From a candidate division KSB1 bacterium (lineage in GTDB: Bacteria > Electryoneota > RPQS01): a stretch of DNA of 64,000 nucleotides. This document shows, one piece after another, positions 31,513 to 39,623 of the stretch. Both the position numbers and the translations under genes were made by a program. Position 1 is the stretch's first letter, and each line of letters starts with the position of its first letter. Location: contig JACRMR010000007.1 of the NCBI GenBank assembly GCA_016214895.1, positions 1 through 64,000 of the forward strand, read 5' to 3'. The notes beneath the pieces are model-generated. The model was not told the origin of the DNA. It saw nothing but the letters and a program-made list of their open reading frames with translations, and ran no database searches.

Positions 31513-32256
31513 ATGGGTAACATCGTGCAGATGAAGGTTTATCGCGGCGACAAGAGTGGCGGGTCACTGCGAGACTATTCGCTCGAGATTGACGAAGGCA
31601 TGGTGGTCCTCGATGTGGTGCATAAGATTCAGGCGGAGCATTCACCGGACCTGGCCTGTCGCTGGAATTGCAAGGCGGGGAAGTGTGGTTCGTGTTCGGC
31701 GGAGATCAACGGCAAGCCGTCGCTGATGTGCATGACGCGGATGGATTCACTGCCGCAGGACCGGCCGATTACGGTGGAACCGATCCGCACATTCCCGATG
31801 ATCCGCGATCTGGTGACGGACGTGTCGTGGAATTACGAAGTCAACAAGCGGATCCCCGCGTTCACGCCGAAGCCGAAGAATCCGGATGGCACGTGGCGCA
31901 TGTACCAGTATGAAGCGGATCGCGTGCAGGAGTTTCGCAAGTGCATCGAGTGCTACCTGTGTCAGAATACGTGCCACGTATTGCGGAATCACGATAAGCA
32001 CGACGAGTTTTTCGGGCCGCGGTTCATGGTGCGGCTGGCGATGCTCGAGATGCACCCGCTGGACGCGGCGGACCGCTTGAAGTTGGTGAAGGAGGCGGCC
32101 GGCGTGGGCTTCTGCAACATTACGAAGTGCTGCACGGAAGTGTGTCCCGAGGAGATTCACATCACGGACAACGCGATCATTCCGTTGAAGGAACGCGTGG
32201 CGGATGAGTTCTACGATCCGATTCGGCGGCTGTTCCGGGTGTTTGCGGGGAAGTAG
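31513..32256 (+). CDS. sdhB: Succinate dehydrogenase iron-sulfur subunit
   Basis: 247 residues. The plant-type [2Fe-2S] ligands are in CRWNCKAGKCGSC followed by SLMC. The C-terminal bacterial ferredoxin-like part has CIECYLCQNTC and CNITKCCTEVCPEEI for the [4Fe-4S] and [3Fe-4S] clusters. It carries electrons from SdhA to the membrane subunit. It begins two bases after sdhA. The copies of the REP-like repeat start just past its stop. Confidence 0.95.
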   Translation: MGNIVQMKVYRGDKSGGSLRDYSLEIDEGMVVLDVVHKIQAEHSPDLACRWNCKAGKCGSCSAEINGKPSLMCMTRMDSLPQDRPITVEPIRTFPMIRDLVTDVSWNYEVNKRIPAFTPKPKNPDGTWRMYQYEADRVQEFRKCIECYLCQNTCHVLRNHDKHDEFFGPRFMVRLAMLEMHPLDAADRLKLVKEAAGVGFCNITKCCTEVCPEEIHITDNAIIPLKERVADEFYDPIRRLFRVFAGK

Positions 32257-32262
32257 CGAGTT

Positions 32263-32400
32263 CGCCGAGCAGGGGTTCCTTCTGGATTCCTCGCCGAGCA
32301 GGGATTCAATTTGTTCCTCTTCGCCGAGCAGGGATTCCTTCCCTGCCGGAATTGCAACTTGCCTTCGTCGCCGAGCAGGGATTCCTTCCCTGCCGGAATT
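32263..32400 (+). repeat. REP-like palindromic repeats, left group (four copies)
   Basis: Four copies of a CGCCGAGCAGGG unit start at 32263, 32292, 32322 and 32369. The last two are full length and end in CCTGCCGGAATT. A full copy folds as CCG(A)GCAGGGA-TTCCT-TCCCTGCCGG: a 10-pair stem with one bulged A, the shape of classical REP elements. Copies one and two are truncated. All point the same way and lie just upstream of the RAYT gene. Confidence 0.85.
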
Positions 32401-32421
32401 GGTGAACCCTGAGCAAATTGA

Positions 32422-32910
32422 ATGCGAAGACGCCACAGTCAACTCGGCTTCGCCGGAAGCATTCACTTCATTACGACGGTTACCGAAGTTCGCGGTTCTG
32501 TATTCGTAGAATCGAGCGAATGCAAGAAGATACTTGAATCATTTGAGGTCTTTCGAAATAAGTTCGAGCTTGTGTGCTGCGGCTATGTGTTGATGCCTGA
32601 CCACTTACACGCCGTCTTGGTACAACCTAACGACGGCTCGCATGTTTCCGATGCAATCGGCGGTTTCAAGCGAGCCACATCTCTGAAATGCAAGCCAGCC
32701 CGTTATCCGGACACGCCGTTGTGGCGGGACAATTTCGATGATGTGCCGGTCCCGGGAGTAGAGGCGGCGAAAACGAAATTGCGGTATATGCTGGCCAACC
32801 CGGTGCGCGCGGGGCTTGTGGAGCGGCCGGAGGAATACGAATGGTCAAGTGCGCCGGAGTATTACGGGGGGAAGTCAGGCATTGTGACCGTTACTATACT
32901 GTCGCAGTGA
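32422..32910 (+). CDS. REP-associated tyrosine transposase (RAYT, Y1/HUH family)
   Basis: 162 residues of the Transposase_17/Y1 type. It opens with SIHFITTVTEVRGS. The HUH metal motif is MPDHLHAVLVQP (about residues 55-66), and the candidate nucleophilic Tyr lies in KLRYMLANPVRAGLV, the sequence typical of RAYT proteins, with YEWSSAPEYY near the end. RAYTs nick and join single-stranded DNA at REP hairpins. Inverted groups of a REP-like palindrome flank it on both sides, which supports the assignment. G+C is lower than in the flanking sdhB gene. Confidence 0.9.
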   Translation: MRRRHSQLGFAGSIHFITTVTEVRGSVFVESSECKKILESFEVFRNKFELVCCGYVLMPDHLHAVLVQPNDGSHVSDAIGGFKRATSLKCKPARYPDTPLWRDNFDDVPVPGVEAAKTKLRYMLANPVRAGLVERPEEYEWSSAPEYYGGKSGIVTVTILSQ

Positions 32911-32917
32911 ATCACAC

Positions 32918-33079
32918 ATTCCGGCAGGGAAGGAATCCCTGCTCGGCGACGCTCAAGAACACAGTCCCTGCACGGCGGAAGCGCGAGGACGCCAGCGCAT
33001 AGTGTCGTAGCGAATCACACATTCCGGCAGGGAAGGAATCCCTGCTCGGCGACGGTCAAAATAGTCCCTGCTCGGCGGA
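32918..33079 (-). repeat. REP-like palindromic repeats, right group, tandemly duplicated
   Basis: Two full copies in the opposite orientation to the left group (32921-32948 and about 33024-33051), each followed by a partial copy (about 32964-32979 and 33064-33079). The full-plus-partial doublet repeats with a period of 103 bases, starting at about 32901 and 33004, so the unit has been duplicated in tandem. The array ends within the leader of the YjbQ gene. Confidence 0.85.
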
Positions 33080-33085
33080 AAGTAG

Positions 33086-33496
33086 ATGAAATTCCATACC
33101 GAATACCTTACGTTCAAGACGAAGCAGCGCGAGGAGTTCGTGAATATTTCTCGCGACGTGGAGTCGGCGGTCACGAAGTCAGGGATTAAGGACGGAATGG
33201 TGCTGGTGTCGGCGATGCACATCACGGCGGCGGTGTATGTGAACGATGCGGAGGACGGGCTGATCGAGGATATTAAGGAGTGGTTGCGCGGATTGGCTCC
33301 GGATCAGAACTACCGGCATCACCGCACGGGCGAGGATAACGGTCAGGCGCATCTGAAGAATTTGATCCTGCATCATCAGGTCATCGTGCCCGTTACGAAT
33401 GGGCGACTGGATTTTGGTCCGTGGCAGCAGATCTATTATGCGGAGTTTGACGGTCAGCGCAATAAGCGGGTGATTATCAAGGTGATGGGGGAGTGA
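33086..33496 (+). CDS. YjbQ/UPF0047 family protein
   Basis: 136 residues covering the whole UPF0047 (YjbQ) family: [20 protein letters not shown], then [18 protein letters not shown] and [18 protein letters not shown]. His residues and the acidic DNGQAH loop form the conserved site. Members have weak thiamine-phosphate synthase activity in vitro, and the physiological role is unclear. It begins 7 bases after the last partial REP copy; the GGAAAGTAG just before its ATG overlaps that repeat. It may head the run leading to the Rieske gene. Confidence 0.92.
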
Positions 33497-35624: not shown

Positions 35625-38600
35625 ATGAAACAGCTACGAAGTCTTTTTGAAATGGCTTGCTGGGCGCTGCTTGCGAGCTTCGTTTCTGTGGGCGTCGCGT
35701 GGGCGGAGCCGTACGCGATACAGTTCAAGAGCGGCGTGGTTACGCCTGACGCCGGGGCGTACGAGATTCCACAATCCGCTTACATGCAGACCACGGGGAC
35801 GCGCGTTCACGTGTTGCTGCAACTGGAGGACTATCTGCAGGCCGGGGATCGCGAGCGTTTGAAAGCCGACGGTATCGAGCTGCTCTCTTACTTCCCGGAC
35901 CGGGCGTATGCGGCGAGCATTCCGCCGACACTCGACGTGTCGCTGCTGCCCGGACTGGGCGTGCGGAGCGTGACGCCGCTGTGGGCGGACTACAAACTGC
36001 ATCCGCGCGTGACGCGCGGCGAGTTTGGTCCGTGGAGCGAGTTTTCGAGCAGTGAGCGCATTTTCGCGGTCGAAGTGCATTCGGACGTCACACTTGATGA
36101 AGCCGTGTCCGCATTGAAGCTGACGGGCTGGGAGCCTGGCCATCGTTTTGTCGCGGCTCATTCGCTGTTGGTCGCCGGCGACCCGCGGAACGTGAACGAA
36201 CTGGCGAGCATGGATTTCGTCGCGTTCATCGACGAATGTCCGCCGCCACCGGAGATGGTCAACGATGTGGCGCGGACGCGCTTGCATGTGAACGAAGTGC
36301 AGAGCGACCCGTATAATCTGAGTGGCGCGAGCGTGACGATTCTGGTCTATGACGGCGGGATGGTGGACAGCACGCATCCGGATTTCGGCGAGCGCGTGAC
36401 GTGGAATGAAATCGCGGCGATCGCGGATCACCCGACGCACGTGGCCGGGACGGTGGGCGGCGACGGGACGCAGAGCGACGGGACGTATCGCGGCATGGCG
36501 CCGGGGGCGCGGATCATCAGCGGGCAGTACGACGTGTGCATCCCCTATTGCCTGTACGAGAGTCCCAACGATTTCGAGCCGGATTACACGCAGGCGCGGC
36601 GGCAGTTCGGGGTCGAATTGACGACCAATTCGATTGGGGCGAACATCAGTCCCAACGGGTACAACTGCGATTGGATGGGCGACTACGAGACGACGTCGCG
36701 GCTGCTGGATCAAATGACGCGCGACGTGCTTGGCGAACCGCTGATCATGTTCTTCGCGGCGGGCAATGAGCGGAACGATGCCGGCTGCGGTTTGGCGAGC
36801 TATCGCTGTATGTCGGTCCCGGCGGGTGCGAAGAACATCATCACGTGCGGCGCGACGACCTCGACTGACGCGACGGCTTCGTTTTCGTCCTGGGGTCCGA
36901 CCGACGACGGGCGGATCAAGCCGGAAGTCAGCGCGACGGGCGTCAATCTGACCTCGTGCGCGCCCGGACCGGGCTACGGCTATCAGGATATGAGCGGAAC
37001 GTCGATGGCGACACCCGCGACATCGGGCACGGCCTGCTTGATACTTGAGCGCTGGCACCTGTTATTTCCCGGCGCACCCGATCCGTTGCCCGAAACGATG
37101 AAGGCGATTCTGATCAATTCGACCACGGACATCGGTGCCGCCGGACCGGATTACCAGACCGGTTTTGGTTTGGTGAACGCGCTGAAGTCCGTCCAGAATC
37201 TTAATCTTGGCGGCGTTTATGAAGGCTCGCTGGACGTTGGGGAAGAATTGAATCGGCCGTTTGCGGTTGCCGCGGGTACGGCGGTGCTGGATGTCTCGAT
37301 CGCGTGGAGCGATGTCCCGGCAGCGGGGAATGTGACGCCGACACTCGTGAACGATCTCGATTTGCGCTTGGTCGCTCCGGATGGGACGATTCATCTGCCC
37401 TACACGCTGTTGCCGCAGAATCCCGGCAGTCCGGCGGGTCGCGGCGACGACAGCATCAACGTTTGCGAGCGCGCGAGTGTGGCGAATCCGCCGGCCGGAA
37501 CGTGGACCCTGCGCGTGACGGGCACGATCAACAGCGGGAGTTCCCAGACGTTTGGCGTCTGCGCGAACGTCACGTTGGTCGATACGTGGGCGGCAATTTC
37601 GGGACAGATTCGCGATAACGGCAACACGGGAATTCCGGGCGAGGTATCGATCTCCGGTGGTGCGCAGCGGCAGCTGACGGACGCGAACGGGAACTACACG
37701 CTGAGCGTCCCCGGCAACACGACTTACACGGTGGCCGCACGTGCGTACGGCTACCTCCCTGCCCAGACGCAGGTGGTGGTGACCAACGGCACGGTCACGC
37801 AGAACTTTACATTGTCCACCGCGCAGACCGGCACGGTTCACGGCACCGTCACCAACCAGTTCGGAACTCCGCTTTTGGGCGCCACGCTTACCGCGTTCTT
37901 TCCGAATGCCACAATCCCTCCGGCGACGACCGGCGCGGATGGCACCTACGAGTTGATATTGCCGGGCGGGAACTCTTACGAGCTGCGCTGTGCGGCCGGC
38001 AGCGACCAGGCCTCGACCACCGTTACAGTGCCGGAGAACGGGAATGTGACCGCGAACTTTGAGATCGAAGACGCGCGGTACAATCCCACCGGACCCGACG
38101 ATTACGGATATTATGCGTACGAGGCCAATGATCCCGGCCTGCCCGCGGTTTATGACTGGACGGAGATCAGTCCAAACGCAGGGGGAGCCGGCACCCTGGT
38201 GCCGAGCGGCACGGCGAGCAACGATTGGGTCGTGAACCTAACGTGTCCGTTCCCGGTGCGCTACTATGGCGTCGAATCGACGAATCTGCGCATTGGCGCG
38301 GACGGCTGGGTCGGCATCGGCACGGGCGCCAACGGCACGGCCTATTCCAACCAGCCGATTCCCACGGCAGCCGATCCCAATACCATGATTGCTGTGATGT
38401 GGGACGACAATAACCCGGGTCCGGCGCAGAGCAACCGTGCGGATGGTGCGGGCGATATCTCGACCTATCACGACGCGGCGAATGACCGATTTATCGTGGA
38501 GTATCACGACGTTGCTCACTTCTCGCCGACGACCAACCGCACCACAGCACAGCTCATTATCTACAGTCAGGCGGAGCGGCCGACGTTGACAGGCGACAAC

Positions 38601-39623
38601 GAGTTTGAGCTGATGTTCCAGCACGTGGACTACGAGGACAACTCCTCCACGGATGCGGATGGGACGATCGGCTGCGAGAACGGCGACGGTACGACCGGCT
38701 TGCAGATTGTCTATGCCGGCACGTACGATGCCACCGTCTTTGGCTTGAGCGACTCGTACGCGCTGCGCTTCACGACCGGCGCCGTGACGGGCCACGGGGC
38801 GATCCGGGGCCGGTTGACGATGCACCCGGCTCCCGATTACACACAAGTGCCGGTTGTGCTGGGACCTTACACGATCACCCCGGCGGCGGACGGCACGTAT
38901 TTCTTCACCGGCGTCGTGGCGCGCTCGTACACGATGACGGTTTCCTATCCGGACTACGAACTGGGGAGTAACTCGAACGTCGTGGTCAATGCGGATGACA
39001 CGACCACGGTGGACTTTGAGCTGTGGCGGATGGATCCGGCGCGCAACCTGGTGGGCGAGTATGACTGGGCGGTTCCCGAGATTCGGCTGAATTGGGATCC
39101 GGCCTTGTCACTGGCAGATGGTGCCGCGAATGGTCGCGGACGCGGTGCGCTGGACGGCTTCCTCGGCTACGAGATCTGGCTGGGCGGCCGCGGCTTGCAG
39201 GGAACAACTCAGGATACGTTCTTCGTATATCCGGTGACCCAGAGCCGTGCGTACAACTTCTGGATTCTCGCGCGGTATGACGGCGGCGACGCGGATACCT
39301 CGAACCACTATCGCGTGACCGTCGATTTGGCGGCGGCGGACGTGGCGAGCTTGATTCCGGACCGTTTCTACCTTGCGCAAAACTATCCGAATCCGTTCAA
39401 TCCATCGACGACGATCGAATACGGATTGCCGCGGAGTGTGGACGTTCGGATCGAGGTCTTCAACGTGCTGGGCATGCAGGTAGCGACGTTGCTTGACGGC
39501 CTGCAGCCGGCGGGCGTCCACCAGGTTGAGTTCAATGGGGCGGCGACGGGCACGGGTATCTACTATTGTCGGATTCAGGCGGGCGAATTCTCCGGCATCC
39601 AGAAGATGCTGTTGATGAAATAA
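35625..39623 (+). CDS. Large secreted subtilisin-like protease with T9SS tail
   Basis: 1332 residues. Signal peptide to about residue 28, a propeptide-like region, then a peptidase S8 domain with Asp in ILVYDGGMVDSTHPDF (about 241), His in HPTHVAGTVGG (about 272), Asn in FFAAGNERND and Ser in SGTSMATPATSG (about 459). The catalytic domain is followed by a P-domain-like sandwich, two carboxypeptidase-regulatory-like domains (about 660-820), a lectin-like region, another regulatory-like unit, and the sorting tail LAQNYPNPFNPSTTIEYGLP...FNVLGMQVATLLDG. It should be exported by the T9SS and act outside the cell. GAGAGGGGATTGCC precedes the ATG. Confidence 0.93.
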   Translation: MKQLRSLFEMACWALLASFVSVGVAWAEPYAIQFKSGVVTPDAGAYEIPQSAYMQTTGTRVHVLLQLEDYLQAGDRERLKADGIELLSYFPDRAYAASIPPTLDVSLLPGLGVRSVTPLWADYKLHPRVTRGEFGPWSEFSSSERIFAVEVHSDVTLDEAVSALKLTGWEPGHRFVAAHSLLVAGDPRNVNELASMDFVAFIDECPPPPEMVNDVARTRLHVNEVQSDPYNLSGASVTILVYDGGMVDSTHPDFGERVTWNEIAAIADHPTHVAGTVGGDGTQSDGTYRGMAPGARIISGQYDVCIPYCLYESPNDFEPDYTQARRQFGVELTTNSIGANISPNGYNCDWMGDYETTSRLLDQMTRDVLGEPLIMFFAAGNERNDAGCGLASYRCMSVPAGAKNIITCGATTSTDATASFSSWGPTDDGRIKPEVSATGVNLTSCAPGPGYGYQDMSGTSMATPATSGTACLILERWHLLFPGAPDPLPETMKAILINSTTDIGAAGPDYQTGFGLVNALKSVQNLNLGGVYEGSLDVGEELNRPFAVAAGTAVLDVSIAWSDVPAAGNVTPTLVNDLDLRLVAPDGTIHLPYTLLPQNPGSPAGRGDDSINVCERASVANPPAGTWTLRVTGTINSGSSQTFGVCANVTLVDTWAAISGQIRDNGNTGIPGEVSISGGAQRQLTDANGNYTLSVPGNTTYTVAARAYGYLPAQTQVVVTNGTVTQNFTLSTAQTGTVHGTVTNQFGTPLLGATLTAFFPNATIPPATTGADGTYELILPGGNSYELRCAAGSDQASTTVTVPENGNVTANFEIEDARYNPTGPDDYGYYAYEANDPGLPAVYDWTEISPNAGGAGTLVPSGTASNDWVVNLTCPFPVRYYGVESTNLRIGADGWVGIGTGANGTAYSNQPIPTAADPNTMIAVMWDDNNPGPAQSNRADGAGDISTYHDAANDRFIVEYHDVAHFSPTTNRTTAQLIIYSQAERPTLTGDNEFELMFQHVDYEDNSSTDADGTIGCENGDGTTGLQIVYAGTYDATVFGLSDSYALRFTTGAVTGHGAIRGRLTMHPAPDYTQVPVVLGPYTITPAADGTYFFTGVVARSYTMTVSYPDYELGSNSNVVVNADDTTTVDFELWRMDPARNLVGEYDWAVPEIRLNWDPALSLADGAANGRGRGALDGFLGYEIWLGGRGLQGTTQDTFFVYPVTQSRAYNFWILARYDGGDADTSNHYRVTVDLAAADVASLIPDRFYLAQNYPNPFNPSTTIEYGLPRSVDVRIEVFNVLGMQVATLLDGLQPAGVHQVEFNGAATGTGIYYCRIQAGEFSGIQKMLLMK

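Follow-up and report, generated by a model that had tools for sequence, protein, structure and literature searches.

RAYTs (TnpA_REP) are Y1 HUH transposases that, elsewhere, are described as domesticated, and they are accompanied by cognate hairpin repeats, the REPs. Canonical REPs carry the tetranucleotide GT[AG]G immediately 5' of the stem (PMC2817692, PMC6006769), and this foot is contacted in the E. coli enzyme by W94, Q95, E100, H101 and R104 (PMC6006769, PMC8266576). The RAYTs that have been studied cut at a CT dinucleotide beside the REP, complementary to bases 3 and 4 (AG) of the GTAG foot, and in the Marinomonas system an altered foot shifted the cut site; both cleavage beside REPs and a role of the foot in the choice of cleavage site have experimental precedent (PMC8266576). 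Variants of this arrangement include the class 3 TnpA_Y1 proteins of Planctomycetes and Acidobacteria, which have a CnGA foot (Quentin et al. 2018, PMC6006769), the REPINs (Bertels and Rainey 2011, PMC3116915), and the TIRtrons with their TIRYT genes (Di Nocera 2013, PMC3733652).

The locus described here occupies positions 32257..33085 of a stretch of 64,000 nucleotides (the window) from the 3.21-Mb genome of a candidate division KSB1 bacterium. With high confidence it can be read as a REPtron, that is, a domesticated Y1 HUH transposase (RAYT) with its cognate REP, inserted into an sdhB-yjbQ operon. The evidence for this reading comes from sequence and predicted structure, and consists of the protein family and fold, the inverted flanks, the dispersal and covariation of the repeat, its pairing with the enzyme, and an empty site in relatives.

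The left neighbour is sdhB (31513..32256, + strand; Pfam Fer2_3 and Fer4_8) and the right neighbour is yjbQ/UPF0047 (33086..33496, + strand; Pfam UPF0047). In five relatives yjbQ follows directly 3' of sdhB at a distance of 0–9 nt, with stop and start overlapping or nearly touching, and the 829-bp module is absent from the junction in all five. The module is therefore an insertion, as the preliminary description had proposed. The sequence AAGTAG occurs at both of its edges (32251-32256, on the sdhB stop side, and 33080-33085, before the yjbQ start), and may be due to a short duplication or to chance. That description had also called the host FCB-like, a reasonable view in that a member of the family has been deposited as a candidate division KSB1 bacterium. 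Further along the window (35625-39623) there is a large subtilase-like protein with, by inspection, the end NYPNPFNPSTTIEYGLP...KMLLMK, which is presumably a C-terminal sorting-type domain of the kind usual in FCB lineages.

The gene within the module (32422..32910, + strand) encodes a RAYT of 162 aa. The HUH motif is H61-L-H63, the catalytic Y122 lies within YMLANPV, and these three residues are unchanged across 26 relatives. The protein matches Pfam Y1_Tnp at 25.1 bits (cut-off 23) and NCBIfam NF047646 (REP_Tyr_transpos) at 89.4 bits (cut-off 80), and its AlphaFold model (pLDDT 93.8) has as closest PDB fold 4ER8 (E 1.2e-8), the E. coli RAYT with a REP hairpin bound. The original assignment as a Y1 HUH transposase with an HLH motif is thus borne out and, by its RAYT-specific similarity, narrowed to RAYT/TnpA_REP. 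The enzyme type, together with the ISDra2 and IS608 transposases as the next-ranking fold matches, would also suit an insertion sequence of the IS200/IS605 type that moves autonomously and from which the repeats derive as non-autonomous elements, but this is very unlikely: the gene is single-copy, no tnpB adjoins it, the flanking hairpins are inverted rather than on the same strand, and the REP_Tyr_transpos model scores above its cut-off while transpos_IS200 does not. There are four RAYTs in the genome; the others share 43-51% identity with the window RAYT and are not the near-identical copies that IS200/IS605 membership would imply.

Eight REP units lie in the module, four in forward orientation to the left of the RAYT gene and four inverted to the right, and such inverted orientation on both sides (inverted pairs I1-I8) is the arrangement expected of a REPtron. 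Two units on each side are complete palindromes (32321..32352, TCGCCGAGCAGGGATTCCTTCCCTGCCGGAAT, and 32366..32399 on the + strand; 32918..32951 and 33021..33054 on the - strand). On each side the remaining two units are half-units that comprise foot, 5' arm and loop (32264..32275, GCCGAGCAGGGG, and 32293..32304, GCCGAGCAGGGA, on the + strand; 32965..32976, GCCGTGCAGGGA, and 33065..33076, GCCGAGCAGGGA, on the - strand). The left group had been described as four direct palindrome copies; the direct orientation holds, but two of the four are half-units, while the right group is as described, with two full and two partial units in the opposite orientation. The right group is a tandem duplication of ~103 nt. 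The full unit consists of TCG, the foot CCGA, a 7-bp stem (GCAGGGA with TCCCTGC) closed by the 5-nt loop TTCCT, and then CGG and AAT. On folding, the proposed stem with one bulged A is reproduced, and covariation over 37 distinct units agrees with it: standard pairing is found in 94.9% of pair cells, covariation scores 0.201 vs 0.073 +/- 0.012 for shuffles (slid partners reach at most 0.070), and compensatory changes are seen at stem position 3 (A-T to G-C or C-G) and position 7 (A-T to T-A or C-G). The half-units lie 26-30 nt outside, i.e. upstream of, full units (window positions 32264, 32293, 32965 and 33065); the same placement recurs at many sites, among them C20:321730 and C21:4179-4218 in the genome and locus L223, and also in another genus. 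Slippage at the hairpin is possibly their source.

The suggestion that these units belong to a genome-wide family is upheld. Exact matches to the 12-mer GCCGAGCAGGGA number 66 in the genome, vs 0 for the reversed control, and a 62-nt sequence taken from the right flank matches 70 places, mostly over ~31 nt at 88-100% identity. A relaxed pattern fits 108 units in the fetched stretches. The copy numbers come from pattern searches and from stretches around matches, such that units with an altered 12-mer far from any match can escape them. Of the 108 units, 34 are identical over 29 nt, spanning both the foot and the 3' AAT. The copies at the RAYT locus, which had been put forward as possible founders of the family, are typical of the major, TTCCT-loop subfamily. 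When genes are called with a codon-pair model that was trained on the window, 82 of 87 units fall between genes, vs 19.6% non-coding DNA in the scanned stretches. A second subfamily with the loop CTGTG is also present (C2:285665, C3:352707, C3:399695, C12:522429, C20:281721, C13:211 and C23:211) and is dominant in a related genus; across genomes, the window 12-mer is found 66 times in the window's genome and ~40 times, with the CTGTG loop, in G008, and is rare elsewhere. Conserved sequence extends further around the CTGTG-loop units (CATCGGGA..CTCCTC and CTCCGGTCGTCAACC..GACCAGATTCCG), which therefore lie in a larger dispersed repeat, near-identical copies of which are found at the starts of contigs C13 and C23. 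That contigs C9, C13 and C23 begin inside repeats could point to chance or to an assembly artefact of low-complexity GC-rich repeats, but the probability of this is negligible given the empty reversed control, the many different flanks, the covariation and the independent relatives.

Most units (63 of 73) lie 3' of a gene and in its sense orientation, as do 20 of 24 co-directional clusters (p ~0.0015). This placement would suit host elements, for example transcription terminators, attenuators or hairpins that stabilise mRNA, whose numbers selection or recombination had raised and among which the RAYT had merely landed. Such an origin is unlikely, since the units have no U-tract and match no Rfam family (a search with the REP gives nothing up to E = 5), 34 copies share the identical 29-mer with foot and AAT included, and each RAYT has a different hairpin, with REP type following the RAYT tree. 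The terminator reading in particular was rejected: the units lack a T-tract, the number of terminator-like sites equals that in shuffles, and the sole overlap is with a half-unit. A further expectation, that the repeat would form inverted REPIN pairs in intergenic regions, is contradicted by the orientation counts. Neighbouring units outside the RAYT locus are in the same orientation in 35 pairs and in opposite orientation in 2, and form direct arrays with a spacing of 35-165 nt. The dispersed form is therefore not a REPIN; it is like REPINs in being a RAYT-dependent dispersed REP population within one genome, but unlike them in consisting of direct arrays instead of inverted pairs (PMC3116915).

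The REPtron reading gains further support from the other RAYTs. The four RAYTs of the genome are flanked by four different REP hairpins, one type each. That of the C3 RAYT (CCCGATGGGGCACTTGGAGACAAGTGCCGCC) occurs in 47-nt direct arrays and its hairpin core has 67 exact copies genome-wide, that of the C12 RAYT is CCCGAGCGGGGCAGGTG...CACCTGCCGCCGC, and that of the C8 RAYT is CCCGAGCGGGGCATGTC...GACATGCCGCCGC. The arrays of the C3 RAYT (L032:692-2211; C3:160650-162170) lie on both sides of the gene with a strict 47-nt period, comprise about ten and about eight copies, and are open in several reading frames. The C8 RAYT gene (L034:1240-1773, minus strand) itself contains its cognate REP, at 1454-1493, in frame and between the HUH and Tyr motifs; REP insertions within the RAYT gene are reported to be a special trait of subclass 2.4 (PMC6006769).

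In a survey of 41 relatives, a sharp group of RAYTs scores >170 bits and the others score <=113 bits. The high-scoring group, 28 proteins restricted to two families of one order, is monophyletic (support 99/98), and repeated, mostly inverted hairpins adjoin the gene in nearly all members for which flanks are available. All seven loci that have bulged REPs of the form GGGGCA..TGCCGCC belong to one nine-member subclade (by our own count, the chance of seven bulged-type loci falling within 9 of 28 RAYTs is ~3e-5), and sister RAYTs from different genera have a common REP in two cases (G009d/G007c and G010b/G009c). REP type tracks the RAYT tree, not the genome. The assignment of subfamilies to RAYTs one-to-one is incomplete, because G008 has ~40 copies of the CTGTG-loop form but no such copy beside any of its four detected RAYT genes. 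The alternative outcome, a repeat that occurs nowhere else in the genome and relatives with no RAYT-repeat pairing, was looked for and is not what was found; specific pairing holds both within the genome and in relatives. The same family has a second RAYT clade (L202-L209; G001, G002, G004 and G007-G010) with a WQ.GYWSE-type motif and adjacent hairpins with CTAG- or TTAG-like feet, and a third group (L212-L216; G020, G026, G028 and G037) has PSHIH and WQDRFDR motifs and lies between long inverted repeats whose ends read GCGTCAGGTC.

The preliminary description had assigned the repeat the classical REP shape. The repeat does have a bulged stem; the GT[AG]G foot that defines the GTAG REP superfamily, however, is absent from the window REP and is replaced by CCGA. 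This foot is constant across stem variants and at unit borders, and some relatives have CCGC or CCGT. Across the 28 clade RAYTs, CCG[N] feet were detected next to 20 and GT[AG]G next to 3, the automatic detection being only partly specific because palindromes yield feet on both strands (CCGG and GGCG are partly the same hairpins). The enzyme differs correspondingly at the positions of the foot contacts, as transferred from E. coli by alignment of the clade with 4ER8 at low identity: the tryptophan is kept (W101), while Q95 corresponds to R102 or is variable, E100 to D107, H101 to V108 and R104 to P111. At least 90% of the clade members have P111, within the motif W..xFDDV..P (WRDNFDDVPVP in the window RAYT). 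From the set that contacts GTAG (W94, Q95, E/D100, R104) the W is retained, with R102 and P111 at the places of Q95 and R104. A RAYT from the same phylum (G015a) with the motif WQPRFWEH..R has a flanking GTAG hairpin, and another clade goes with CTAG-type feet, so that foot and RAYT motif change together.

In alignments of independent copies from both loop classes of the window genome and from G008, conservation drops to ~0 beyond YCG on the left of the unit and AAT(C) on the right. The left end has the dinucleotide YC (T 47-63%, C 95-100%) and the right end TC (T 90-94%, C 58-85%). Bases 3 and 4 of the CCGA foot are GA, complementary to TC, and the unit-end TC would thus fit the guide rule by foot complementarity, as a correlation recognized after the fact. 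A tentative extension, which we think somewhat less probable than not, is that in this RAYT clade, restricted to one order of a phylum related to KSB1, the guide code has been switched, with CCGA in place of GTAG, changed foot-reading residues, and a cut moved from CT to TC under the same complementarity rule.

From the sequences we infer that the RAYT mobilises the REP repeats. The enzyme would bind the REP hairpin on single-stranded DNA (the lagging-strand template or otherwise exposed ssDNA) through the 5' CCGA foot and the stem, its predicted substrate being single-stranded REP DNA carrying TCGCCGAGCAGGGATTCCTTCCCTGCCGGAATC. Y122 would then cut at the TC (YC) dinucleotides bounding the unit, which GA, the final two bases of the foot, would select through complementarity, and the unit would be rejoined or copied elsewhere by single-strand copying or excision. 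The RAYT gene itself may rarely spread by the same route when inverted units bracket it, and direct arrays and half-units may grow by slippage over the hairpin.

The system resembles the RAYT/REP pairs of Gammaproteobacteria (E. coli TnpA_REP, 4ER8; Nunvar 2010, PMC2817692; subclasses 2.2 and 2.5 of PMC6006769) in its Y1 HUH enzyme, which has NP behind the region of the catalytic Tyr, the inverted flanking REPs, the bulged hairpin in many intergenic copies, the RAYT-REP coevolution, and the presence in one genome of several RAYTs with a separate REP for each. It differs from them in the CCGA foot, in R (or a variable residue), V and P at Q95, H101 and R104, and in the direct arrays. Class 3 TnpA_Y1, suggested by a non-GTAG foot of the form CnGA and likewise high in copy number, was rejected on protein motifs: class 3 has NHVH, W[TA] and Y....EQ, whereas the window RAYT has DHLH, WR and YMLANPV in class 2 style, a comparison made with the published motifs (PMC6006769). 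TIRtrons similarly have RAYT-like genes between inverted repeats that are not of the GTAG type, some of which recur in the genome, but here the unit is a foot plus hairpin and the CCG foot is constant across the clade (PMC3733652). A RAYT clade of class 2 style whose REPs have a CCGA foot and stand in direct arrays is a variant, not a new kind of system.

RAYT-REP pairing is hereby extended to an uncultured lineage on the FCB side, one genome contributing four cognate pairs and one order 28, and with a natural change of foot to CCGA that is accompanied by changes in the foot-contact residues and in the unit-end dinucleotides. If the guide code has indeed been switched, the clade would offer a test of the guide model in nature, one that mutation of the E. 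coli RAYT could not provide. Such a panel of enzyme-hairpin pairs makes the choice of cleavage site by RAYTs directly testable.
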